64,000 nucleotides of DNA from Vandammella animalimorsus. Its GTDB lineage: Bacteria > Pseudomonadota > Gammaproteobacteria > Burkholderiales > Burkholderiaceae_C. The notes under the pieces were generated by a model. That model saw nothing but the letters and a program-made list of their open reading frames with translations. It made no database searches and was not told the origin of the DNA. The stretch is taken from contig NZ_NSJB01000001.1 in assembly GCF_002285265.1 (NCBI RefSeq), positions 372,001-436,000 on the forward strand, read 5' to 3'. This document shows, piece by piece, positions 3,672 through 30,484 of the stretch (its first letter is position 1; every line of letters starts with the position of its first letter). Position numbers and translations under genes: made by a program.

Positions 3672-4376
3672 ATGGCCAGCACTGGCATGAAGCACATCGG
3701 CATTCTGGCCACGACGGCAGAGGGCGCGGCGCTGGTTTACCGGCAGATTTGCGCGCTGAGCATGGCGCGGCTGGGCGGGCATCGCCACCCGGAAATCTCC
3801 CTGCACGCCTTTTCGTTTTCGGACTATGCGGGCAGTTGGGCGCAGCGCGAGCAGCATTGGCCGCAGCTGGTGCTGCGCTCGGCCGCCAAGCTCCAGGCCT
3901 GCGGCGCGGATTTCCTCATCTGCCCCGCCAACACGACCCACGAAGCCTATACCCAGGTGGCGCCGCAGCTGCCCATCCCCTGGCTGCACATTGCCGACCC
4001 CGTGCGGCGCGCGGCGCAGCAGCAGGGACTGCAGCGCCTGCTGCTGCTGGGCACGCAGGCGACCATGCAAGGGCGGGTGTATGAGCCGCGATTGGCAGGC
4101 AGCGGCATTGAGTTGCTCAAGCCCGATGCGCAGGAGATCGAGCAGGTGCACCGCTTCATCATGGAAGAACTGGTGGCCGGCGTGGTCACGCAGGCCGCGC
4201 GCGGCTACTTTTGCGCGCTGGCTGCCAAGTACCACCGCGAGCAGGGCGCGCAGGCCGTGGTGCTGGGTTGTACGGAATTGCCGCTGGTGCTCGATGCCCA
4301 GGCGGGGGTGCCGCTTTTGGACTCCACCGCCTTGCTGGCCCAGGCGGCGGTGGAATACGCGCTGGGTGAGGGCTGA
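3672..4376 (+). CDS. aspartate/glutamate racemase superfamily protein
   Basis: This 234-residue cytoplasmic enzyme belongs to the two-cysteine racemase superfamily. The N-terminal motif MKHIGILATTAEGAALVYRQI and the C-terminal VVLGCTELPL, with its catalytic Cys, are clear. At the first catalytic position most family members have Cys immediately before NT; here the motif reads ICPANTTH, with Cys three residues before the Asn. The subfamily may use that Cys or be a non-racemase member. The first ATG is called; an ATG at 3687 (MKHIGILAT) starts closer to the conserved region. It follows the CoA-transferase gene by 4 bp and converges on bfr. Confidence 0.75.
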   Translation: MASTGMKHIGILATTAEGAALVYRQICALSMARLGGHRHPEISLHAFSFSDYAGSWAQREQHWPQLVLRSAAKLQACGADFLICPANTTHEAYTQVAPQLPIPWLHIADPVRRAAQQQGLQRLLLLGTQATMQGRVYEPRLAGSGIELLKPDAQEIEQVHRFIMEELVAGVVTQAARGYFCALAAKYHREQGAQAVVLGCTELPLVLDAQAGVPLLDSTALLAQAAVEYALGEG

Positions 4377-4470
4377 GCCGCTCGCCAGGAGCAATGCCCG
4401 CGCCCGCGCGACAAATCAAATCCTGCGAGCAGACCGCGCAAGGGCGTGCAAGGGGCGCTCAGCCTCAGCC

Positions 4471-4938
4471 TCAGCCCATTTGCGTTTGCAGGTAGTTGGG
4501 CAGGCCGATTTTCTCGATCAGCGCCAACTGCTGCTCCAGCCAGTAGGCGTGGTCTTCCTCGGTGTCGCGCAGCTGCTTGAGCAGCATGTCGCGCGAGACG
4601 TAATCGCCTTGCTCTTCGCACAGCTGCATGGCCGCGCGCAGCCGATCGCGCACTTCCAGCTCCGTGTCCAGGTCTTTTTGCAGCATTTGCGGCACGGTGT
4701 CGCCGGGTGTGAACTCCAGCGGGCGCATGTCGGGCTTGCCCTCGAGCATGAAGATGCGGCGCATGATGTCGTCGGCGTGCTGGGTTTCCTCTTCCATTTC
4801 GTGGTTCAGGCGCTCATAGAGCTTTTTCAGCCCCAGGTCCTCATAGCGGCGCGAATGGTAGAAGTACTGGTCGCGCGCGGCGAGCTCGCCGCGCAGCAGT
4901 TGCACCAGGGTGTCGATGACTTTGGGATTGCCTTGCAT
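4471..4938 (-). CDS. bfr: bacterioferritin, ferroxidase-type subunit
   Basis: Iron-storage 24-mer subunit of 155 residues. All ferroxidase ligands are present by alignment with E. coli Bfr: Glu18, Tyr25, Glu51, His54, Glu93/94, Glu127 and His130. The haem-ligating Met52 is replaced by Thr (EEETQHAD), so this subunit should oxidise iron but not axially ligate haem by itself. The second bacterioferritin in this window (9424-9906) has the opposite residue set. The start is chosen at the conserved [11 protein letters not shown], with an AAGGA-type site nine bases upstream. No bacterioferritin-associated ferredoxin gene is adjacent, and the gene is convergent with the racemase. Confidence 0.95.
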
Positions 4939-5440
4939 GGGGGGGATTCCTTGGAAAAAAGTGTGAGGGTGCCTGCCAAGACTGCTGTGTGGCGGCGCCC
5001 ATGGCTTGTGCGGTATTCGAAAAGGCGCTTTGCGCGCCCTGAATTGGAGCGCAGTATCGGTCTTCGTGCAGCGGCTGTGAAGACAAGCCCCCAACCCGCC
5101 GGTATGCATACGGATAGGTATGCAAAAGCGCGTGAGATGCGTTCTTGTTCGTCGGCGTCTTGCCAGGGGGGCATGTGCTGTCGGCCAGTGTGCTGCCCCG
5201 CAAATACCTACACATCCAACCGATGCCTGCCCCGCCATGGCCGCCTTGCCAATGCGCGCGATGCCGCCTGCCATCGCTGTGCTTTGCGCCTTGCCCTGAC
5301 ACGACATGCAGCGGCTTGATTCGTGCAGTGATCTGTGCGAGGACAGCACACTGGCGCGGCCTTTGGGGCCTGGCAATCTCCCTATAATTTTTCCTTTTTT
5401 CAGGCGCAGACGGCGCCAGCTGCCGCCGGGCTTTTTTGCA
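4939..5440. other. divergent intergenic region between bfr and ispB
   Basis: About 500 bp without a credible gene; I looked specifically for bacterioferritin-associated ferredoxin (CxC...CxxC) on both strands and did not find it. GGTATGCA occurs twice, at 5101 and 5117, in a small AT-richer patch that could be part of the bfr promoter. The ispB promoter lies at the right end. Confidence 0.4.
5383..5388 (+). promoter_or_regulatory. -10 box of the ispB promoter
   Basis: A perfect TATAAT lies 52 bp before the ispB ATG. The -35 region is weak: CCTTTG is at 17-bp spacing. Confidence 0.55.
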
Positions 5441-6412
5441 ATGACTCGCAACGACCAAGATTTGACCTTGATCTCCCAGGACATGGAAGCCGTGGATGCC
5501 GTGATCGCTGCACGGCTGAGCACCAATGTTGCACTCATCGGCCAGGTGGCGCATTACATCATTTCCGCAGGCGGCAAGCGCCTGCGCCCGGCCATGCTGC
5601 TGCTGGTGGCCAAGGCCCTGGGCTACCAGGGGCGGCAGCACCACGAGATGGCAGCGGTGATGGAGTTCATCCACACGGCCACCTTGCTGCACGACGACGT
5701 GGTCGATGAATCGACGATGCGGCGCGGGCGCCCCACGGCCAACCAGAACTTTGGCAACCCCGCCAGCGTGCTGGTGGGCGATTTCCTGCACTCGCGCGCC
5801 TTCGAGATGATGGTGGCCACGGGCAACATCCGCGTCATGCAGGTCGTGGCCGCGGCCACCAACATCATTGCCGAGGGCGAGGTGCAGCAGCTCATCAACA
5901 TGCACGATGCCTCGCTGGACGAGGGCGGGTATTTGCAGGTGATCCGCTCCAAGACCGCCAAGCTGTTCGAGGCCAGCACCCAGGTCGGCGCGATCCTGGC
6001 CAGCGCCGATGCGGCGCTGGAGCAGGCCGCCGCGGTGTACGGGCAGGCGCTGGGCACGGCCTTTCAGATCATCGACGACGTGCTGGACTACGACGGCAGC
6101 GCCCAGGAAATGGGCAAGAACGTGGGCGACGACCTGCGCGAGGGCAAGGCCACGCTGCCGCTGATCGTGGCCATGCAGCGCGGCGATGCGCAGCAGGCGC
6201 GCACCGTGCGCGAGGCCATCGAGCAAGGCTCGGTCGAGCAGCTCGCAGAAGTGATCGCCATCGTGCGCAGCACCGGGGCCTTGCAGGTGGCGCGTGAATG
6301 CGCCCAGGCCGAGGCGCAGCGCGCCCTGCAGGCCCTGGCCGCCTTCCCGGACAACGCCTGCACCGCCGCCCTGAAGGCCCTGCCCGAGCGCCTGCAGGCG
6401 CGCCGCAACTGA
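5441..6412 (+). CDS. ispB: polyprenyl (octaprenyl) diphosphate synthase
   Basis: Condenses isopentenyl diphosphate units onto an allylic primer to make the side chain of ubiquinone. This is a 323-residue trans-prenyltransferase. It shows GGKRLRP (~residue 45), the first aspartate-rich motif LLHDDVVDE (~80-88), GDFLHSRAF, and the second aspartate-rich motif IIDDVLDYD (~205-213). Length and motifs fit IspB. The start at 5441 follows the TATAAT promoter; the frame is open further upstream but has no homology there. The chain length (C40) is inferred from the betaproteobacterial context. Confidence 0.95.
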
Positions 6413-6439
6413 AACCGAACCCTCTTGCAGGAGCGCAGC

Positions 6440-7099
6440 ATGCAGCTCTACAACTACTTCTACAGCTCGACCTCGTACCGGGTGCGCATTGCGCTGGCCC
6501 TCAAGCAGCTGCCCTTCGATTACCTGCCCATCAACCTGCGCACGCAGCAGCAGCGCACGCCCGAGTACCTGGCGCGCAATCCGGCCGGTGGCGTGCCGCT
6601 GCTGATCGACGACGATGGTTTTTCGCTGACGCAGTCGCTGGCCATTCTCGACTACCTGGAGCAGCGCCACCCGCAGCCGGCGCTGCTGCCACACGAGCCG
6701 CACCAGCGGGCGCGCGTGCTTGAGCTGTGCCATGCCATTGCCTGCGACATCCACCCGGTGAACAACCAGCGCGTGCTGCGCTATCTGCAGCAAGAGCTGG
6801 GGCTGGACGAGGCGCGCAAGAATGCCTGGTACGCGCACTGGATCGCCCAGGGGCTGCAGGTGGTGGAGCACCTGCTGGCGCAACTGCGCAGCCAGGGCCA
6901 TGCCGGCCCCTATTGCTTGGGCGCGCAACCCAGCTGGGCCGATTGCTGTCTGGTGCCGCAAGTGGCCAATGCGCTGCGCATGCAGTGCGAGACGGATGCT
7001 TACCCATTGACCATGGCGGTGTACCAGCACTGCCTGGCGCAGCCGGCCTTCCAGCAGGCCGCGCCCATGGCCCAGCCTGACGCGCCCGCGCAAGCCTGA
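6440..7099 (+). CDS. maiA: maleylacetoacetate isomerase (zeta-class glutathione S-transferase)
   Basis: A 219-residue zeta-class GST that isomerises maleylacetoacetate to fumarylacetoacetate, using glutathione, in tyrosine/homogentisate breakdown. The N-terminal thioredoxin-like half has the zeta signature SSTSYRVRIALALK; the usual Ser-Ser-Cys is Ser-Ser-Thr here. NPAGGVPLL and FSLTQSLAILDYLE give the glutathione-binding region, and DIHPVNNQRVLRYL marks the helical half. A CAGGAG site (6429-6434) sets the start. No homogentisate pathway gene is adjacent, so an alternative maleylpyruvate isomerase role cannot be excluded. Confidence 0.85.
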   Translation: MQLYNYFYSSTSYRVRIALALKQLPFDYLPINLRTQQQRTPEYLARNPAGGVPLLIDDDGFSLTQSLAILDYLEQRHPQPALLPHEPHQRARVLELCHAIACDIHPVNNQRVLRYLQQELGLDEARKNAWYAHWIAQGLQVVEHLLAQLRSQGHAGPYCLGAQPSWADCCLVPQVANALRMQCETDAYPLTMAVYQHCLAQPAFQQAAPMAQPDAPAQA

Positions 7100-7176
7100 G
7101 GCTGCCTGCAGCGCCCGCTGGCAACTGGCCATTGATAACTGGCCATTGGCAGAGCCGGGCAGGGCGCATCTCTATC

Positions 7177-7182
7177 TACAAT
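7177..7182 (+). promoter_or_regulatory. candidate -10 box for the TPR membrane protein gene
   Basis: TACAAT lies 35 bp before the ATG at 7218. TTGGCA occurs upstream at 7146 but is too far away (25 bp), so the -35 element is uncertain. Confidence 0.35.
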
Positions 7183-7217
7183 CGCCCGTTTCTTTTCTTG
7201 AGAGATCGGAGACGGGC

Positions 7218-7988
7218 ATGCCATTCATTGGGCTGGGGCTGCATTTGCTGGTGGCGCTGTTCTTTGCCGTGCACGCGGTGCGCACGCGCCAGCAGAACTA
7301 CTGGCTGTTCATCCTGTTCTCGTTCCCGCTGCTGGGCAGCCTGGCCTACTTCTTCAGCATCTACCTGCCCAGCAACCAGCGCATGCAGCGCCAGGGGCGC
7401 AAGCTGATCGCCGCTGCAGGCCAGGTGCTGGACCCAGGTCGCGAGTTGCGCGAGGCGCGCCAGGCCTGGGAGTACACGCCCACCGCGCAGAACCGCATGC
7501 GCCTGGCTGCGGCCCTGCTCGCCGCCGGCCAGGCCGAGGAGGCGGCCAGCGAATATGCGCAATGCCTCAGCGGCCCCTTCGCCAACGATGCCGACATCCG
7601 CCTGGGCGCGGCGCAGGCCTTTGCGCTGACCGGGCAGCCGGCGCGCGCCCTGGAGCATCTGCAATTCCTGCAGCGCGAGCAGCCAGGCTTTCGCCCCGAG
7701 GAAGTGGGCATCCTGCTGGCGCAGACGCTGGCGGCCAGCGGCGATGTGCCAGCGGCTTACGATTTGTTCGAGCAACTGGCGCAGCGCCATGGCGGCTTTC
7801 ATGTGCATGCCGAATACGCCATCGTCGCGGCCCAGCAGGGCGACTGGGCCAGGGCCGAGCGCCTCAAGCCCATCATCGAGCAGGCCACCTCGCAATGGCA
7901 AAGGGCGCAGCGCGAGCTCAACGCCAGCACCATGCAGCGCCTCAATGCGGCCTACCGCAGCCTGGAGCAGCCGCCGGCGCAAGGTTGA
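7218..7988 (+). CDS. membrane-anchored tetratricopeptide-like protein, function unknown
   Basis: A 256-residue protein with two hydrophobic helices at the N-terminus (IGLGLHLLVALFFAVHAV and a second one near 30-52 ending FFSIYLP). A soluble, alanine-rich helical region follows, with TPR-like pairs: RMRLAAALLAAGQAEEAASEYAQCL, then DIRLGAAQAFALTGQPARALEHLQFL, then LLAQTLAASGDVPAAYDLFEQLA. This suggests an inner-membrane protein presenting a cytoplasmic or periplasmic scaffold. ATG 7218 is chosen because it begins the hydrophobic segment; the frame is open back to 7146. It sits between maiA and hisC with no obvious functional link. Confidence 0.7.
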   Translation: MPFIGLGLHLLVALFFAVHAVRTRQQNYWLFILFSFPLLGSLAYFFSIYLPSNQRMQRQGRKLIAAAGQVLDPGRELREARQAWEYTPTAQNRMRLAAALLAAGQAEEAASEYAQCLSGPFANDADIRLGAAQAFALTGQPARALEHLQFLQREQPGFRPEEVGILLAQTLAASGDVPAAYDLFEQLAQRHGGFHVHAEYAIVAAQQGDWARAERLKPIIEQATSQWQRAQRELNASTMQRLNAAYRSLEQPPAQG

Positions 7989-8090
7989 ACAGGCCCTTGG
8001 TTTTTTCACCAGGCGCGTCTGCGGAGTTTGGAGCGAAAACACCGCCGCAACACTGAATTTCAACAGCCCCTACACACACCGAACCCAACC

Positions 8091-9167
8091 ATGAACTTCT
8101 GCAGCGATGGCCTGCAGGCGCTGGAGCCCTACATCCCGGGCGAGCAGCCGCAGGTGGCCGATCTCGTCAAACTCAACACCAACGAAAACCCCTATGGCCC
8201 CTCGCCCCAGGTGATCGCCGCCATTGCGCAGGCCGCCCAGCAGGGGCTGCAGCTCTACCCCGACCCCTTGTCGCTGCGCCTGCGCCAGGCCATCGCGCAG
8301 CACCACGCCAGCGCCGGCATCGATGCCGCGCAGGTCTTCGTCGGCAACGGCTCGGACGAGGTGCTGGGCCATGCCTTCCGGGCCCTGTTCGTGCGCCCTG
8401 GGCGCAAGCTGCTGATGCCCGACATCAGCTACAGCTTCTACAAGGTCTATTGCCAGCTGCACGGCATCGAGATGCAGCAAGTGCCGCTGCGCGAGGACTG
8501 GCGCATCGCCGTCGAGGACTATCTGGCCATCGACCCGGCCAGCTGCGCCGGCGTGGTGCTGGCCAACCCCAATGCGCCCACGGGCATGGCCTTGCCGCTG
8601 CAAGACATCGAACGCCTGGCGGCGCATTTCACGCAATCGGCCGTGCTGATCGACGAGGCCTATGTGGACTTTGGCGCGCAGTCGGCCGTGCAATTGGTGG
8701 CGCGCTACCCCAATTTGCTGGTGGTGCACACCCTCTCCAAATCCTGGGCGCTGGCGGGCCTGCGGGTGGGCTTTGCCATGGCCCAGGCGCCACTCATCGA
8801 GGCGCTGGTGCGCGTCAAGGACAGCTTCAACTCCTACCCGCTGGGGCGCCTGGCCCAGGTCGGCGCCCAGGCGGCGCTGCAGGATTGGGCCTACTACCGC
8901 GATTGCACGGCCCGCATCGTCGCCACGCGCCAGGCCTTGGCGCAGGCCCTGCAGCAGCGCGGCTTTGAAGTCCTGCCCTCGTGCGCGAACTTTCTCTTCG
9001 TGCGCCACCGGCAGCATGCGGGCGCGCAGCTCTACGCCGGGCTGCGCGAGCGCCAGGTGCTGGTGCGCCACTTCGACAAGCCCCGCCTGGGCGAGCACCT
9101 GCGCATCAGCATCGGCACGCCCGAGCAAAGCCAGGCCTTGCTGGCCGCGCTGGATGCCTTGCTGTAG
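8091..9167 (+). CDS. hisC: histidinol-phosphate aminotransferase
   Basis: A 358-residue PLP-dependent fold-type I aminotransferase converting imidazole-acetol phosphate to histidinol phosphate. Visible features are LNTNENPYGPSP near the N-terminus, GNGSDEVL, VVLANPNAPTG, IDEAYVDF, the PLP lysine motif HTLSKSWALAGLRVGFA, and the phosphate-binding Arg in LRISIGTPEQ. It is not within a his operon here. Burkholderiales often carry more than one hisC paralogue, so this may be a second copy with aromatic aminotransferase activity. The start is set at the ATG preceding the conserved region. Confidence 0.88.
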   Translation: MNFCSDGLQALEPYIPGEQPQVADLVKLNTNENPYGPSPQVIAAIAQAAQQGLQLYPDPLSLRLRQAIAQHHASAGIDAAQVFVGNGSDEVLGHAFRALFVRPGRKLLMPDISYSFYKVYCQLHGIEMQQVPLREDWRIAVEDYLAIDPASCAGVVLANPNAPTGMALPLQDIERLAAHFTQSAVLIDEAYVDFGAQSAVQLVARYPNLLVVHTLSKSWALAGLRVGFAMAQAPLIEALVRVKDSFNSYPLGRLAQVGAQAALQDWAYYRDCTARIVATRQALAQALQQRGFEVLPSCANFLFVRHRQHAGAQLYAGLRERQVLVRHFDKPRLGEHLRISIGTPEQSQALLAALDALL

Positions 9168-9423
9168 GGGCAGCGCATCCACAGGCAGCCGCTGCACTGT
9201 GTGGCTCTGCATTGCCTGCCTGGGCGCGCAGGGGCAAGGCATAGGAAACATTCTTAATCTCACGTGCAACAAAACCGCGCGCAAGGGGGCTTGCATTGCC
9301 AGGCGCGGCGCGGCTTGGAACAATGGCGCCCGTTGCATGCAGGCCCGATGGCCTGTGTGCCTGGCGAAGCGGCCTTGGCGGCCACAGTTCGCCAGTTTTC
9401 ACGGACACGAACAGGAACCCCCG

Positions 9424-9906
9424 ATGACCGGCGATCCCCAAGTCATGCGCCATTTGCAGGCGCAACTCAAAGTCTTGCTGACCAACATCAACCAGACTTT
9501 CGTTCACTACCGCATGCTGCAGCACTGGGGCTTTGGCGTGCTGGGCAGGGCGGAGTACAAGGCCTCGATCAAGGCCATGAAGCAGTCCGACGAGTTGATG
9601 GCGCGCATCTTCTTGCTCGACGGCCTGCCCAACCTGCAGGACTTGGGCAAGCTGCGCATCGGTGAGGACGTGGCCGAGCTGCTCGAATGCGATCTGGCGC
9701 TGGAGCTTGAATCGCAGGCTACGCTCAAGGCCGGCATCGCGCACTGCGAGCAGGTGGCCGATTTCGTCTCGCGCGATCTGCTGCAGGGCATGCTCGATGA
9801 GGTGGAAGAGCGCATCGACTTTCTGGAAACCCAGCAGTCGCTGATCGAGCAAACAGGCCTGCCCAACTATCTGCAATCGCAAATGGACGAAGGCGCAGGG
9901 CATTGA
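9424..9906 (+). CDS. bfr: bacterioferritin, haem-binding subunit lacking a ferroxidase centre
   Basis: A 160-residue bacterioferritin homologue. Aligned to E. coli Bfr, the haem ligand Met52 is kept (IKAMKQSD). The di-iron site is lost: Glu18 is Leu, Tyr25 is Thr, Glu51 is Ala, His54 is Gln, Glu127 is Val and His130 is Arg; only Glu94 remains. The overall fold signatures (LLDGLPNLQDLGKLRIGEDV, FVSRDLL, GLPNYLQSQM) are intact, so it is not a pseudogene. It is expected to co-assemble with the ferroxidase subunit at 4471-4938. It is preceded by a 256-bp intergenic region and followed by an intrinsic terminator. Confidence 0.93.
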   Translation: MTGDPQVMRHLQAQLKVLLTNINQTFVHYRMLQHWGFGVLGRAEYKASIKAMKQSDELMARIFLLDGLPNLQDLGKLRIGEDVAELLECDLALELESQATLKAGIAHCEQVADFVSRDLLQGMLDEVEERIDFLETQQSLIEQTGLPNYLQSQMDEGAGH

Positions 9907-10004
9907 GCCGCTGGCCTGCCCCAAGGCCTTGGCAGGGGCAGGCGGGCAAACCACAACGGTCGACCCACGATCGAAATCAAAGAAAAAACTCCAAAAATCC
10001 TTGC

Positions 10005-10035
10005 ATGGGCCATCGCTGCGATGGCCCATTTTTTT
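10005..10035 (+). terminator. intrinsic terminator after the haem-type bacterioferritin gene
   Basis: Perfect 11-bp stem (ATGGGCCATCG / CGATGGCCCAT) with a 3-base loop, followed by seven T residues. It lies ~100 bp past the stop. It may also insulate the convergent ligA. Confidence 0.9.
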
Positions 10036-10107
10036 GCCTTGTGCCTATGCCTATGCCTGTGTTTGTGCCTGTGCCGCTATGCCTGGGCGCACAGTGGCCG
10101 GGCGGCA

Positions 10108-13610
<3,503 letters not shown>

Positions 13611-25722: not shown

Positions 25723-26210
25723 TGAGGCTACGGTGCATGCGTCAGCAAACGCACACTTTGTCCAGAGAAAGAGACATTGCCTTCGCAAGCCTGCTCATGT
25801 TCATAGCCTTCAACAGGCTCAGCCCGACAGCAGCCACAACCGCAGCTTGGCGCGCAGCCATTGGGCGTGCGACTGCGGCTGCTTATGGCTGGCCTGCCCA
25901 CAGTCTGTCAATCCGGCGGCCCTGGAGCTTTGGAGCTTGTCAGCAAACATGCCGATGCGCACTTGCATGCGCCATGTCGGCTGCGCCAATTCAAGCCAAT
26001 TGCGCGGCGATCCACGTACTTCGCATTGCGCTTTGACGATGTTTGACATTAACCCGCTGTATCCGCTTGCAGCAATTGGCTATAAAGCGTAACGAATCGC
26101 AGCATGGTGGTACTTCCTGCCAGTGACTCGCACAAGCGGCGAGCCTCAACACAATGGTTTTATGTCTGCCCTTGGTTGTGATCCAAAGCTTATCCAACAG
26201 CCCAGGCCGC
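25723..26210. other. intergenic region between the repeat element and the accessory patch
   Basis: Nearly 500 bp without a recognisable gene. It contains TTGACA near 26043 without a matching -10. At 26088-26102 it contains CGTAACGAATCGCAG, which recurs with one mismatch at 27301-27315 ahead of the next accessory gene. It may be a degraded gene; no family similarity was seen in any frame. Confidence 0.4.
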
Positions 26211-27068
26211 ATGCATTACATCTTTGGAAATCGTAGGCGCATTGCAATTGCCGTCATTCTTGGCATAGGCATAGTCATCGCCTTGCTGGGCGCAGTTGAT
26301 CGCGCCAAAAAAGCCTTGTCAGGCCAGCAAAGGCCAGTTGCAGCCAGCCAAAGCCAGGCCACGAAGGAAATACGGGATTTGCAAAAAATCCCGAAAGAAA
26401 GCGCGTCCTTCGGTGAGGAAAACCACTCCATTCCCATCAAACTGCCCCAGAAAGGCCCGAACTACCGTGGCGACCTGGGCGGGGTCACCGTGCAAGTGCC
26501 TAAGAGCTGGGCTTTTTTATTGTCCTACGACGATGCCAAGAACCCCGAAACACAGGAATACATCATCAAGGGGTTCATACTGCGGACCAATGCTGACTGG
26601 TTGATCAGTGGCAAAGGGGATAGAGAAAGGATTGGTGAATTAATGAATCGAGCCTCAATTTTCGTCACTGCAGGCGTTCGCCCGCCGTCCCGGGAGCTGT
26701 CGATGAATTATCTCTCCTCTCCTTGTGTGCTTGGGTTAAGGAAAAATAGATATCCATACAAAAAAAGTCCAAGCGAGGTTCATGGGTTGGAGTGGTGCTA
26801 TCCAGAATATGAATTCAAGAAAAGCAATGAAAAACTGCACGACGAGAATATTTATTACAAAAATCATGATAGGGTGGTAACGGATGTCGTTATTTGCTTT
26901 AATGGGGTGACTGGATCATCTTATTGTGATCATACGTTCTTCTTGGATCATGGGCCTCGCGCAGAAATTTCGATCAGATATCACAAAATTCATTTGCAAA
27001 ATTGGAAGCTGATTAGAGATCGCGTTCAGTCTGTGTTTATTGATTTTGCTATCCCTCGGCCCAGTTGA
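26211..27068 (+). CDS. membrane-anchored hypothetical protein, possible effector-immunity type
   Basis: A 285-residue protein with one N-terminal membrane helix (IAIAVILGIGIVIALLGAV) followed by a soluble domain outside the membrane. The motif NYRGDLGGVTVQVP and the C-terminal pattern SSYCDHTFFLDHGPRAEISIRYHKIHLQNWKLIRDRV resemble proteins often found beside type VI lipase effectors in Burkholderiales. That resemblance is from memory and needs a search. Codon use turns markedly AT-rich in the second half. The start is ambiguous (ATG 26154 or 26211); 26211 places the helix near the N-terminus. No ribosome binding site is convincing. Confidence 0.6.
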   Translation: MHYIFGNRRRIAIAVILGIGIVIALLGAVDRAKKALSGQQRPVAASQSQATKEIRDLQKIPKESASFGEENHSIPIKLPQKGPNYRGDLGGVTVQVPKSWAFLLSYDDAKNPETQEYIIKGFILRTNADWLISGKGDRERIGELMNRASIFVTAGVRPPSRELSMNYLSSPCVLGLRKNRYPYKKSPSEVHGLEWCYPEYEFKKSNEKLHDENIYYKNHDRVVTDVVICFNGVTGSSYCDHTFFLDHGPRAEISIRYHKIHLQNWKLIRDRVQSVFIDFAIPRPS

Positions 27069-27164
27069 GTGAAGATATTTGGGCGAAGGAGTTGGTTTTT
27101 TAAGAGCTGTTTGGTTTCATTATTTGATCGGTGCGAGAAATATTGGTGTTCTATGGCTGCCTAG

Positions 27165-27257
27165 TTGGCCACGGATATTGTTAAGCACCTTGTGCCAAAG
27201 GCGTGGCAAATAGTCAAGGTCGGGCAAGAGTCAGTGCATGGGCTGCATGTGCAGTGA
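27165..27257 (+). other. short orphan reading frame, possible gene remnant
   Basis: A 30-codon open stretch without an ATG reads LATDIVKHLVPKAWQIVK and ends VHGLHVQ. It lies ahead of the first paralogue. It could be the C-terminal scrap of a deleted gene, but it matches nothing I recognise. Confidence 0.25.
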
Positions 27258-27331
27258 TTGATAATGAAGAAAACCCAATGACAGCGATGGGCCATAAAAA
27301 CGTAACGTATCGCAGGTGAAAGAAATATCTC

Positions 27332-27934
27332 ATGGTTGTCATTCCCATCGTCTTCATGTGGCTGTGCTATTTGGGGCTGAGCCTTTGGCTGGCGCAGATC
27401 TTCAACCGCTGGGCCCGCGGTGAAAAGCACCGCTTCAGGTATCCGGGGGTGATCGTGATGCTGGTCATGTGGCTGCCGGTGCTGTGGGATGCGCCTTTGC
27501 AGGAGATGAAGTACCGCAAGCTGTGCCGCGAGGAGGCGGGATTGACGGTGTTCAAGACGCCAGAGCAATGGGATCAGGAGCATGGTGGTCTATTGAAGAC
27601 TCTGACTCCTGTGGAAGGAGTTGTCAGTACGACGCTAAGCAAAGGTCATTCTCGCTATTTTTTGAATGAGAGATTTGCATTTGACTCTGTTTCAACCCCG
27701 ATAGGCTATAGATTGATTGAAAGAAGGAAGGAGGTTGTTGATTTGATTAATGGGGAGGTAATGATTAGGTTTGTGGATTTTGATGCAGGTCCTTTGCATC
27801 ATATTCCAAGTTTCGGGCGGATATGGTTGAATAAGCCCAGTTGCAGGGATAACAAAGAAATTCCGAGGAGCTCGGAGATCTTGAGTATGAGGTCAAAATT
27901 TTCGAGTATGGAATCGAAATTTAGTGGCAGATAG
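27332..27934 (+). CDS. hypothetical membrane protein, paralogue 1 of a tandem pair
   Basis: A 200-residue protein. The N-terminal ~75 residues contain two hydrophobic helices (VVIPIVFMWLCYLGLSLWLA and YPGVIVMLVMWLPVLWDA). They are almost identical at DNA level to the paralogue at 28356. The rest diverges, apart from GYRLIERR and FDAGPLHHIPSFGRIW, and is AT-rich. I do not recognise a named family. The tandem duplication around a lipase-like remnant suggests immunity genes for a secreted toxin. TGAAAGAAA lies ~10 bases before ATG. Confidence 0.6.
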   Translation: MVVIPIVFMWLCYLGLSLWLAQIFNRWARGEKHRFRYPGVIVMLVMWLPVLWDAPLQEMKYRKLCREEAGLTVFKTPEQWDQEHGGLLKTLTPVEGVVSTTLSKGHSRYFLNERFAFDSVSTPIGYRLIERRKEVVDLINGEVMIRFVDFDAGPLHHIPSFGRIWLNKPSCRDNKEIPRSSEILSMRSKFSSMESKFSGR

Positions 27935-27951
27935 AAAAGGAATTTTTAAAA

Positions 27952-28281
27952 ATGAAGCTTTCTGCGCATGAATTGGCTTTATTGTCTGAAGCATGTTGTA
28001 CAGAATTTAATTCGGGTGATGATGGGCGTTGATTACTAAAGATATTGAAGATGGTTTGGAGGGAAAAGGCTTCTAAAAATCCCAAGCCCAAGACTTCGTC
28101 GCCCGCTGGGAAGTGGTTTATCAGGAAGCCAACACCCCTTCAGGCTTCTCAGCCACCTTGTTCAAAAGCAAGGATCCCAATGCAGCCAGCCCTATGTGGT
28201 CAACTTCATGCAGCGCATTGCCTCGCCCAAGGAACAGGGTTTTCGAGGGCAGAGCGCATACCTGGAATGCGCTGCGCCGTA
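27952..28281 (+). pseudogene. decayed lipase-like toxin gene fragment
   Basis: The pieces of an N-terminus lie in order but are broken. ATG 27952 opens MKLSAHELALLSEACCTEF and stops at 28032. A frameshift near 28026 continues as LITKDIEDGLEGKGF, then a TAA at 28074, then KSQAQDFVARWEVVYQEANT and PSGFSATLFKSKD to about 28190. That last stretch resembles the region before the lipase GxSxG core of large calcium-binding or type VI lipases. At ~28193 the frame shifts again to YVVNFMQRIASPKEQGF and ends by 28281. The catalytic core is missing, so this is a remnant with an internal deletion. Family assignment is inferred. Confidence 0.5.
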
Positions 28282-28355
28282 AGCAGCAAATGAGTAATTC
28301 AAGGAATATTGCTCAGATCAGGCTCAATCAAGCTTTCATTTGAAAGAAAGATCCC

Positions 28356-28961
28356 ATGGTTGTCATTCCCATTGTCTTCATGTGGCTGTGCTATTTAGGG
28401 CTGAGCCTTTGGCTGGCGCGGATCTTCAATCGCTGGGCCCGCGGTGAAAAGCACCGCTTCAGGTATCCGGGGGTGATCGTGATGCTGGTCATGTGGCTGC
28501 CGGTGCTGTGGGATGCGCCATTGCAGGAGATGAAGTACCGCAAGCTGTGCCGCGAGGAGGCGGGCTTGACGGTGTTCAAGACAGCGGAGCAATGGGATCG
28601 TGAGAATGGTGGACTGCTCAAATCTTTGACCCCAACCAAAGGGGTTGAAACAATCGAAATTGACAAAATAAATTACAGGATGCCTATCAATGAGAGGATT
28701 CATTACGATATATTTTCCATCAATAGGGGTTATAGATTGATCGAGAGAAGGATTGATGTGATAGATGCGGAGACAGGCGAGGTGATGTTGAGACATGTGG
28801 ATTTTGATGCAGGCCCTTTGCATCACATACCCAGTTTTGGAAGGATATGGATGAATAAGCCCAGTTGCATGAGCAATAAAGAAATCCCCAATCATGAAAG
28901 GCTTTTGAAGATGGAGTCGGAATTTTCGAGGTTGACGGCGAAATTCGAGGGGAAGAAGTGA
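28356..28961 (+). CDS. hypothetical membrane protein, paralogue 2 of a tandem pair
   Basis: A 201-residue paralogue of the protein at 27332. The first ~230 bases differ at only a handful of positions. The C-terminal domain shares RGYRLIERR, VMLRHVDFDAGPLHHIPSFGRIWMNKPSC and a helical end, but little in the loop at ~90-120. Two predicted membrane helices lie near the N-terminus, with the remainder likely periplasmic. The pattern of a constant anchor with a variable exterior domain fits diversified immunity proteins. Function not established. Confidence 0.6.
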   Translation: MVVIPIVFMWLCYLGLSLWLARIFNRWARGEKHRFRYPGVIVMLVMWLPVLWDAPLQEMKYRKLCREEAGLTVFKTAEQWDRENGGLLKSLTPTKGVETIEIDKINYRMPINERIHYDIFSINRGYRLIERRIDVIDAETGEVMLRHVDFDAGPLHHIPSFGRIWMNKPSCMSNKEIPNHERLLKMESEFSRLTAKFEGKK

Positions 28962-29326: not shown

Positions 29327-30484
29327 TCAATAGATGGCGTGGCCCTTGTCGCTGTCCACGTCCTCGTTGCGCACTTTGCCGCGCATGACGGCGTACACCC
29401 AGCTGGTGTAGGCCAGCACGATGGGCAGGAAGATGAGGGTGACCACCAGCATGATGAACAGCGTCATGTGGCTGGAGGACGAATCCCACACCGTCAGGCT
29501 GGCCGCCAGGTTGGAGCTGGAGGGCAGGATGAAGGGGAACATGGACACGCCCACGCTGAGGATGATGCCGGCGATGCCCACGCCGCTGGCCAGCAGGGCG
29601 AGGATTTCGCGCCGTGCGGCCAACATCAGCGCGGCCAGCACGAAGCCGAGGATGCCCAGCGCCGGCACCAGCCACAGCACGGGGGCGGCGGCGTAGTTGG
29701 CAAACCAGGCGCCGCCATCGGCGACGACGGTTTTGTACAGCGGGTTGGAGGGGCCGTTGACGACCACATCGCTGGTGATGCGGTAGCCCTCAACGCCTTT
29801 GGCCAGGTACAGGCCCAGCAGCGCGAACAGCACGGCGCTGCCGATGGCGCAGGCGATGCCCCATTGGCGCACGCGCTGCTGCACGGGGCCTTCGGTCTTC
29901 AGTTGCAGCCAGGTGGCGCCGTGGCAGGTGAGCATGAGCACGGAGAGCACGCCGGCGAGCAGCGCGAAGGGGTTGAACAGCGCCCAGAAGGAGCCTTCGT
30001 AGTGGATTTGCATGTCCGGCTCGATGCGGAAGGGCACGCCTTGCAGCACGTTGCCCATGGCCACGCCGAACACCAGCGAGGGCACGAAGCCGCCGATGAA
30101 CAGCATCCAGTCCCAGGTGTTGCGCCAGCGGCTGTCCTCGACTTTGCTGCGGAACTTGAAGCCTACGGGGCGCAGGATGAGCGCGAACAGGATGGCGAAC
30201 ATGGCCAGGTAGAAGCCGGAGAAGGACACGGCATACAGCTGCGGCCAGGCGGCGAAGATGGCGCCGCCGGCCAGGATCAGCCAGACCTGGTTGCCCTCCC
30301 ACACGGGGCCGACGGTGTTGATGACCACGCGGCGCTCGGTATCCGTCTTGGCCACGAAGGGCAGCAGGGTGCCGGTGCCCAGGTCGAAGCCGTCGGTGAC
30401 GGCAAAGCCCACCAGCACCACGCCCAGCACCAGCCACCAGATGACGCGCAGGACTTCGTAATTGAGTAGTTCGTGCAAGATCAT
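29327..30484 (-). CDS. cydB: cytochrome bd ubiquinol oxidase subunit II
   Basis: A 385-residue inner-membrane subunit of the high-affinity quinol oxidase. It opens with YEVLRVIWWLVLGVVLVGFAVTDGFDLG, the CydB signature, followed by GPVWEGNQVWLILAGGAIFAAWP and VEDSRWRNTWDWMLFIGGFVPSLVFGVAMGN. Length and about nine helices match the family. The start overlaps the cydA stop by four bases. It forms the bd complex with CydA and CydX, reducing oxygen to water without proton pumping. Confidence 0.97.
   Translation of the reverse strand: MILHELLNYEVLRVIWWLVLGVVLVGFAVTDGFDLGTGTLLPFVAKTDTERRVVINTVGPVWEGNQVWLILAGGAIFAAWPQLYAVSFSGFYLAMFAILFALILRPVGFKFRSKVEDSRWRNTWDWMLFIGGFVPSLVFGVAMGNVLQGVPFRIEPDMQIHYEGSFWALFNPFALLAGVLSVLMLTCHGATWLQLKTEGPVQQRVRQWGIACAIGSAVLFALLGLYLAKGVEGYRITSDVVVNGPSNPLYKTVVADGGAWFANYAAAPVLWLVPALGILGFVLAALMLAARREILALLASGVGIAGIILSVGVSMFPFILPSSSNLAASLTVWDSSSSHMTLFIMLVVTLIFLPIVLAYTSWVYAVMRGKVRNEDVDSDKGHAIY

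Follow-up and report, generated by a model that had tools for sequence, protein, structure and literature searches.

Bacterioferritin cages in which one kind of subunit oxidises iron and another binds haem have been described in several bacteria. Haem spectra and binding data reported for Pseudomonas aeruginosa place haem on the BfrB dimers, the only ones to which Bfd binds (PMC8945002), the Ftn/Bfr cage of Acinetobacter baumannii is reported to contain haem homodimers without a ferroxidase site (PMC13136788), and the account of Shewanella oneidensis describes a 12:12 cage in which only homodimers were seen (PMC12120770). Here we analysed a 64,000-nucleotide stretch of the Vandammella animalimorsus assembly GCF_002285265.1 (contig NZ_NSJB01000001.1, positions 372,001 to 436,000; hereafter the window), which carries two bacterioferritin-family genes, here called A and B. 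By analogy with the systems above, it is very likely that their products co-assemble in one 24-subunit cage, in which A homodimers would oxidise iron and B homodimers would act as the haem-binding, iron-releasing (exit) subunit. Our literature search found no publication on bacterioferritin in Vandammella, or on bacterioferritin together with ferroxidase in Comamonadaceae, which does not prove absence from print.

4471..4938, minus strand: subunit A, an FtnA-like, haem-free protein of the bacterioferritin family with complete di-iron ligands (155 amino acid residues; Thr52 codon at 4785-4783)
9424..9906, plus strand: subunit B, a haem-type bacterioferritin without a canonical ferroxidase centre (160 residues; Met52 codon at 9577-9579)

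Both reading frames had been proposed in an earlier, sequence-only reading of the window and were recovered at these coordinates. The two products share 38% identity (tblastn match), and both score above the curated cut-off of 125.55 bits for the NCBIfam model TIGR00754 (bfr), with 141.6 bits for A and 201.8 bits for B. Residues read directly at positions 18, 25, 46, 50, 51, 52, 54, 94, 127 and 130 are EYHEETHEEH in A and LTKKAMQEVR in B. All six di-iron ligands (Glu18, Glu51, His54, Glu94, Glu127 and His130) are thus present in A, in which Thr52 replaces the haem ligand, while B keeps the haem ligand Met52 and carries Leu18, Thr25, Ala51, Gln54, Val127 and Arg130, so that Glu94 is its only remaining ligand of the six and Tyr25 is changed as well. 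The alignment bears out the residues listed in the sequence-only reading and adds the retention of Glu94 in B. In PDB comparisons A gave 219 bits to 9bxp, 213 bits to 3r2h and 152 bits to SoBfr1 (9iig_A), placing it nearer to Ftn than to the haem-free subunit of the tandem type; 3R2H is P. aeruginosa FtnA (PMC12120770), and 9bxp is inferred to be the same protein from its near-identity to 3r2h. An AlphaFold2 model of B gave a confident ferritin fold (mean predicted local distance difference test score, pLDDT, of 95.4), with 5zur as the best PDB match. The host genome, which is 99.72% complete, holds no PF00210 (ferritin) match other than A and B, and the pair would therefore carry its ferritin-type iron storage.

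Comparison with relatives separated an older substitution from the erosion of B. Thr replaces the bridging Glu at position 127 in each of the 96 haem-type sequences with an intact ferroxidase centre in our family sample (loci L020-L046 and L070-L138), and the alignment shows Thr in the Achromobacter structure 5zur too, while Glu127 is present in the Pseudomonas loci; the loss of Glu127 therefore predates the erosion of B and is not part of it. Compared with intact members of its own family, B lacks Glu18, Tyr25, Glu51, His54 and His130, which accounts for four of its five ligand changes. B also differs at positions 46 and 50 of the inner iron site, which, however, vary among intact relatives too. 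A-type sequences were read in 31 cases, of which 29 have all six ligands and two have Val at position 94. Three further bacterioferritin-like sequences (L235, L261 and L269) combine Leu52 with intact di-iron ligands and are neither clearly A nor B.

The co-occurrence of the two genes was observed directly in a family sample of 150 genomes (102 matching B and 48 without a match), to which six more members of the genus were added to give 108 genomes read. An intact B stands without A in 76 of them and beside A in 18; an eroded B stands beside A in 12 and without A in none, and two genomes were unclassified (G037, a distant match, and G074, fragments). In G020 two A genes accompany two haem subunits, of which one is intact and the other eroded; this genome was counted as eroded, and five loci had been left out before the count as partial or distant (L139, L140, L141 and L143) or for want of a usable frame (L142). 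The 12 genomes with an eroded B comprise eight of the genus, G079, and three with tandem pairs (G020, G031 and G144), whose haem subunits are eroded differently (E18S combined with H54L or H54I); the haem subunits of the tandem pairs in G180 and G259 are eroded in yet another pattern. Among the 80 named loci the haem subunit is eroded in seven (L145-L149, L189 and L214), including Brachymonas denitrificans (L214) and a metagenome-assembled genome (MAG) of Alcaligenaceae (L189), with E51D, H54D and H130Q and its A gene on another contig. Within the genus, which includes Lampropedia aestuarii (G001), V. animalimorsus (G002, with a B 98% identical to that of the window), Lampropedia cohaerens (G003) and Corticibacter populi (G005), A and B are both present in all eight genomes that are 90% complete or better. 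Seven of these have a fully eroded B, and G004 has a partly eroded one (EYKHAMYETR at the ten key positions); because B is eroded in all eight, its erosion is not a matter of chance.

The sequence-only reading had held that close relatives with the Thr52 type alone would speak against an obligate partnership; none of the 30 genomes with A in our count lacks B. A wider sample of the order comprised 299 genomes, 147 of which match P0001 at E <= 1e-20. Nine genomes among the matches listed were followed up, including seven that had one match each, as candidates for an A without B, and none was upheld once the residues were read: G180 carries, in tandem with its haem-free gene, a haem partner that had missed the E threshold, and the single matches in G175, G192, G201, G209, G246 and G356 are all haem-type. 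PF00210 matches number two each in the window genome, G002 and G157 and three each in G001, G003, G004, G005 and G006. A Dps-type protein may be missing from the Vandammella group, with the third genes being unclassified and G157 only 77% complete.

What B has kept is as consistent as what it has lost. Across nine eroded B sequences (the eight genus genomes and G079), Met52 and positions 19, 23, 26, 31, 45, 49 and 53, which together with Met52 we take to form the haem pocket, are identical in all nine, as are positions 68-73, 77, 81 and 85, which we take to face Bfd. Glu94, Ala51 and Arg130 are likewise identical in 9/9. A lacks the Bfd face and carries Lys68, Met71 and Arg72 there. Of the residues taken to face Bfd, L68, E81 and P69-Q72 are named in the literature (PMC13136788). 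A Bfd-like gene with a CxC...CxxC motif is present elsewhere in the genome (G000 C6:62285-62428). Purifying selection was directly observed in nonsynonymous (dN) and synonymous (dS) divergence calculated by the Nei-Gojobori method: against V. animalimorsus, B gave dN 0.008 and dS 0.329 (dN/dS 0.024) and A gave dN 0.011 and dS 0.323 (dN/dS 0.034). A second relative, the Comamonadaceae MAG L146, gave dN 0.038 and dS 0.205 for B (dN/dS 0.19) and dN 0.006 and dS 0.211 for A (dN/dS 0.03). The low dN/dS values indicate that B is constrained, though less tightly than A in the L146 comparison, and B thus looks to be a functional gene under purifying selection.

In ordinary bacterioferritins, Glu94 and the residue at position 130 are ligands of one and the same iron. 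Their combination in B, Glu94 with the new Arg130, makes a salt bridge in its empty site plausible, as judged from the ligand positions alone. B would have become the haem and exit subunit by losing its di-iron pocket and retaining the haem pocket and the Bfd face. In the proposed cage, Fe2+ would be oxidised at the intact di-iron sites of the A homodimers, feeding the mineral core, and the B homodimers, each with a haem held by a pair of Met52 residues, would receive Bfd at the outer surface and conduct electrons inwards for iron release. Co-assembly, the homodimer arrangement and the haem and Bfd function of B are what we infer from the published relatives. The sequence-only reading had proposed an obligate heteropolymer, and a mixed cage is indeed the best reading of the co-occurrence, the selective erosion and those relatives; dependence is supported only for B, which, without a ferroxidase site, needs another subunit and is unlikely to load iron by itself. 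The closest solved relative of A, P. aeruginosa FtnA, is reported to assemble by itself in recombinant form (PMC8945002), whereas for Magnetospirillum poor assembly of Bfr1 alone is reported (PMC6529640).

Several observations weigh against the mixed cage. The Bfd-like gene lies on contig C6, at a distance from the A/B pair on C1; in dispersed-gene hetero-bacterioferritins, bfd commonly lies close to a bfr gene, a placement described as usual but not defining (PMC12120770). The constraint on B is looser than that on A in the L146 comparison. Eighteen genomes hold A beside an intact B, so that A does not force erosion, and G156, a genus member of 80% completeness whose other PF00210 match is unclassified, has A and no B, possibly through incompleteness. 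Erosion arose about three times independently, leaving only two or three independent pairs, with which a sign test cannot reach 0.05; three events are too few to test the association with A once relatedness is allowed for. Finally, recombinant P. aeruginosa FtnA and BfrB are each reported to form 24-mer homopolymers (PMC8945002).

This last result, together with the opposite orientation of A and B and the four genes that separate them, would suit two separate homopolymers, A as an iron-storing cage and B as a haem-bearing cage with another job, such as haem buffering or an electron sink. We consider this arrangement unlikely, given that the cages of the described relatives are reported to be mixed (PMC8945002, PMC13136788, PMC6529640, PMC12120770), that a cage of B only would lack the ligands for iron loading and that no eroded B occurs without A in the 108 genomes. 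More improbable still is that B is not ferroxidase-dead and keeps an oxidising or iron-binding role at a non-canonical site made of Glu94 and other acidic residues: Glu94 is retained in all nine eroded sequences, and Glu128 and Glu129 are invariant in a 30-sequence alignment, but B is changed at five of the six ligands and at Tyr25, including both histidines, and the charge of the Arg130 found in 9/9 is expected to repel iron. That B is an eroding leftover without function, as its many changed active-site residues, the long branch of the G004 copy and its looser dN/dS against L146 (0.19 vs 0.03 for A) might suggest, can practically be dismissed in view of its dN/dS of 0.024 against V. animalimorsus, the unchanged haem pocket and Bfd face in 9/9 and its presence in all eight genus genomes of at least 90% completeness.

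The course of erosion was followed on a quick tree of 80 rows, for which the ten key positions had been masked and in which 34 inner branches out of 76 are unresolved; three changes to the eroded state were counted on it. G079 joins the genus at an SH-aLRT support of 83, and G004, the least eroded genus member, falls within the genus at the end of a long branch; a tree grouping the eight fully eroded rows without G004 has a likelihood 10 units higher (approximately unbiased test, p-AU 0.649). As read from their residues, G004 and G079 are intermediate states: G079 has Thr25 and Val127 and G004 keeps Tyr25 and Thr127, so that, if G079 lies outside the genus, either both changes occurred twice or the branching is off. 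A stepwise order of erosion is allowed, not proven, by these sequences. Mammalian ferritin pairs an oxidising H chain with a non-oxidising L chain, the latter stabilised by a salt bridge; unlike A and B it has no haem, and its split is of separate origin. We tentatively raise the scenario, which we hold to be possible rather than probable, that the haem subunit of the genus was turned stepwise into a bacterial counterpart of the L chain, with a di-iron site that lost Glu51, His54 and His130 early and Glu18 at the end and gave way to a conserved salt bridge between Glu94 and Arg130, with haem and Bfd docking kept, and with the expression ratio of two unlinked genes setting the balance of iron uptake and release. 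The family sample forms a natural series: some genomes have a single bacterioferritin, in others an FtnA-like subunit accompanies an intact haem subunit, and in others the haem subunit has been stripped of its oxidising site. With such close relatives, the division of labour among cage subunits becomes testable.

The two genes lie about 4.5 kb apart, and the following features were recorded between and around them.

5053..5081, minus strand: promoter-like site upstream of A (consensus match only)
5441..6412, plus strand: polyprenyl synthetase, ispB-like (PF00348), intervening, outside the system
6440..7099, plus strand: glutathione S-transferase family protein, maiA-like (PF13417), intervening, outside the system
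7218..7988, plus strand: TPR-repeat protein (PF14559), intervening, between maiA and hisC
8091..9167, plus strand: aminotransferase, hisC-like (PF00155), intervening, outside the system
9296..9324, plus strand: promoter-like site upstream of B (consensus match only)
10005..10035, plus strand: intrinsic-terminator-like hairpin with an 11-pair stem and a T run, after B

The sequence-only reading had correctly placed A and B on opposite strands with ispB, maiA and hisC between them; it omitted the TPR gene at 7218-7988, and the intervening plus-strand genes are four. Close spacing is common to the window genome, V. animalimorsus (L145) and the MAG L146, the other six genus genomes have A and B on different contigs, and in L147 and L148 the 10 kb on either side of B contain no A gene; the spacing of about 5 kb is local to the Vandammella group. 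Terminator-like sites in 4300-10150 number seven against 4.4 on average in shuffled sequences, the hairpin at 10005..10035 having the longest stem, which is consistent with B transcription ending there. No match to the Fur-box consensus was found in the window with up to three mismatches allowed, and no FNR/Anr-like site was found upstream of A (4939-5440) or of B (9168-9423); FNR/Anr-like matches in the whole window number 181 against 74 expected. In P. aeruginosa, the subunit ratio is reported to track oxygen and ftnA transcription, and Anr stimulates ftnA (PMC8945002). Elsewhere in the window, positions 26154-28961 have a guanine-plus-cytosine content of about 46-48%, against 63-67% on the flanks, and contain a reading frame of 304 residues and a gene of about 200 residues in two diverged direct-repeat copies (27332-27934 and 28356-28961, 1024 bases apart; 91% over 300 nucleotides and 77% over 161 nucleotides). 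This stretch, which adjoins a cytochrome oxidase subunit II look-alike on the minus strand at 29327-30484 (cydB-like, named by eye), may be an acquired or duplicated island.

Among known systems, the pair fits the dispersed-gene type of hetero-bacterioferritin (PMC12120770), with a haem-free subunit that lacks Met52 and has full ferroxidase ligands, a haem subunit with Met52, and separate operons. As in the A. baumannii and Magnetospirillum type, whose haem subunit is devoid of a ferroxidase centre, B has lost ligands, five of the six together with Tyr25. The Neisseria BfrA/BfrB pair, taken as model in the sequence-only reading, has its genes in tandem, and the P. aeruginosa and A. baumannii Ftn/Bfr systems are nearer. 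A solved heterooligomeric bacterioferritin, PDB 9h1u, has three distinct chain sequences; no paper naming it turned up in the library that we searched. P. aeruginosa FtnA/BfrB resembles A/B in its dispersed genes and in supplying the best PDB matches of A (9bxp and 3r2h), whereas its BfrB has a functional ferroxidase site (PMC8945002). A. baumannii likewise combines a Ftn with a ferroxidase site and a haem Bfr without one (PDB 9bts); that Bfr, reported with H18, Q51, H54, V94, E127 and Y130 (PMC13136788), keeps His54 and Glu127 and has lost Glu94, whereas in B Glu94 is the sole ligand kept and Arg130 is new. In Magnetospirillum gryphiswaldense, the split of ferroxidase and haem roles between Bfr1 and Bfr2 was shown experimentally, but the genes lie 11 nucleotides apart in a putative operon, and Bfr2 carries E18Q, H54A and H131M (PMC6529640). 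SoBfr12 of S. oneidensis (PDB 9iig) holds haem-free and haem homodimers in one cage, as proposed for A and B (PMC12120770), but is encoded by tandem genes, and its haem subunit is less eroded (Glu18, Asp51, His54, Glu127 and Val94). By the residues reported for them, B keeps fewer ligands (one of six) than the haem subunits of A. baumannii, Magnetospirillum and Shewanella, the Neisseria and cyanobacterial subunits being outside this comparison. The division of labour between oxidising and haem subunits is already known from other bacteria, and what sets the present pair apart is the unusually complete loss of the ferroxidase site.

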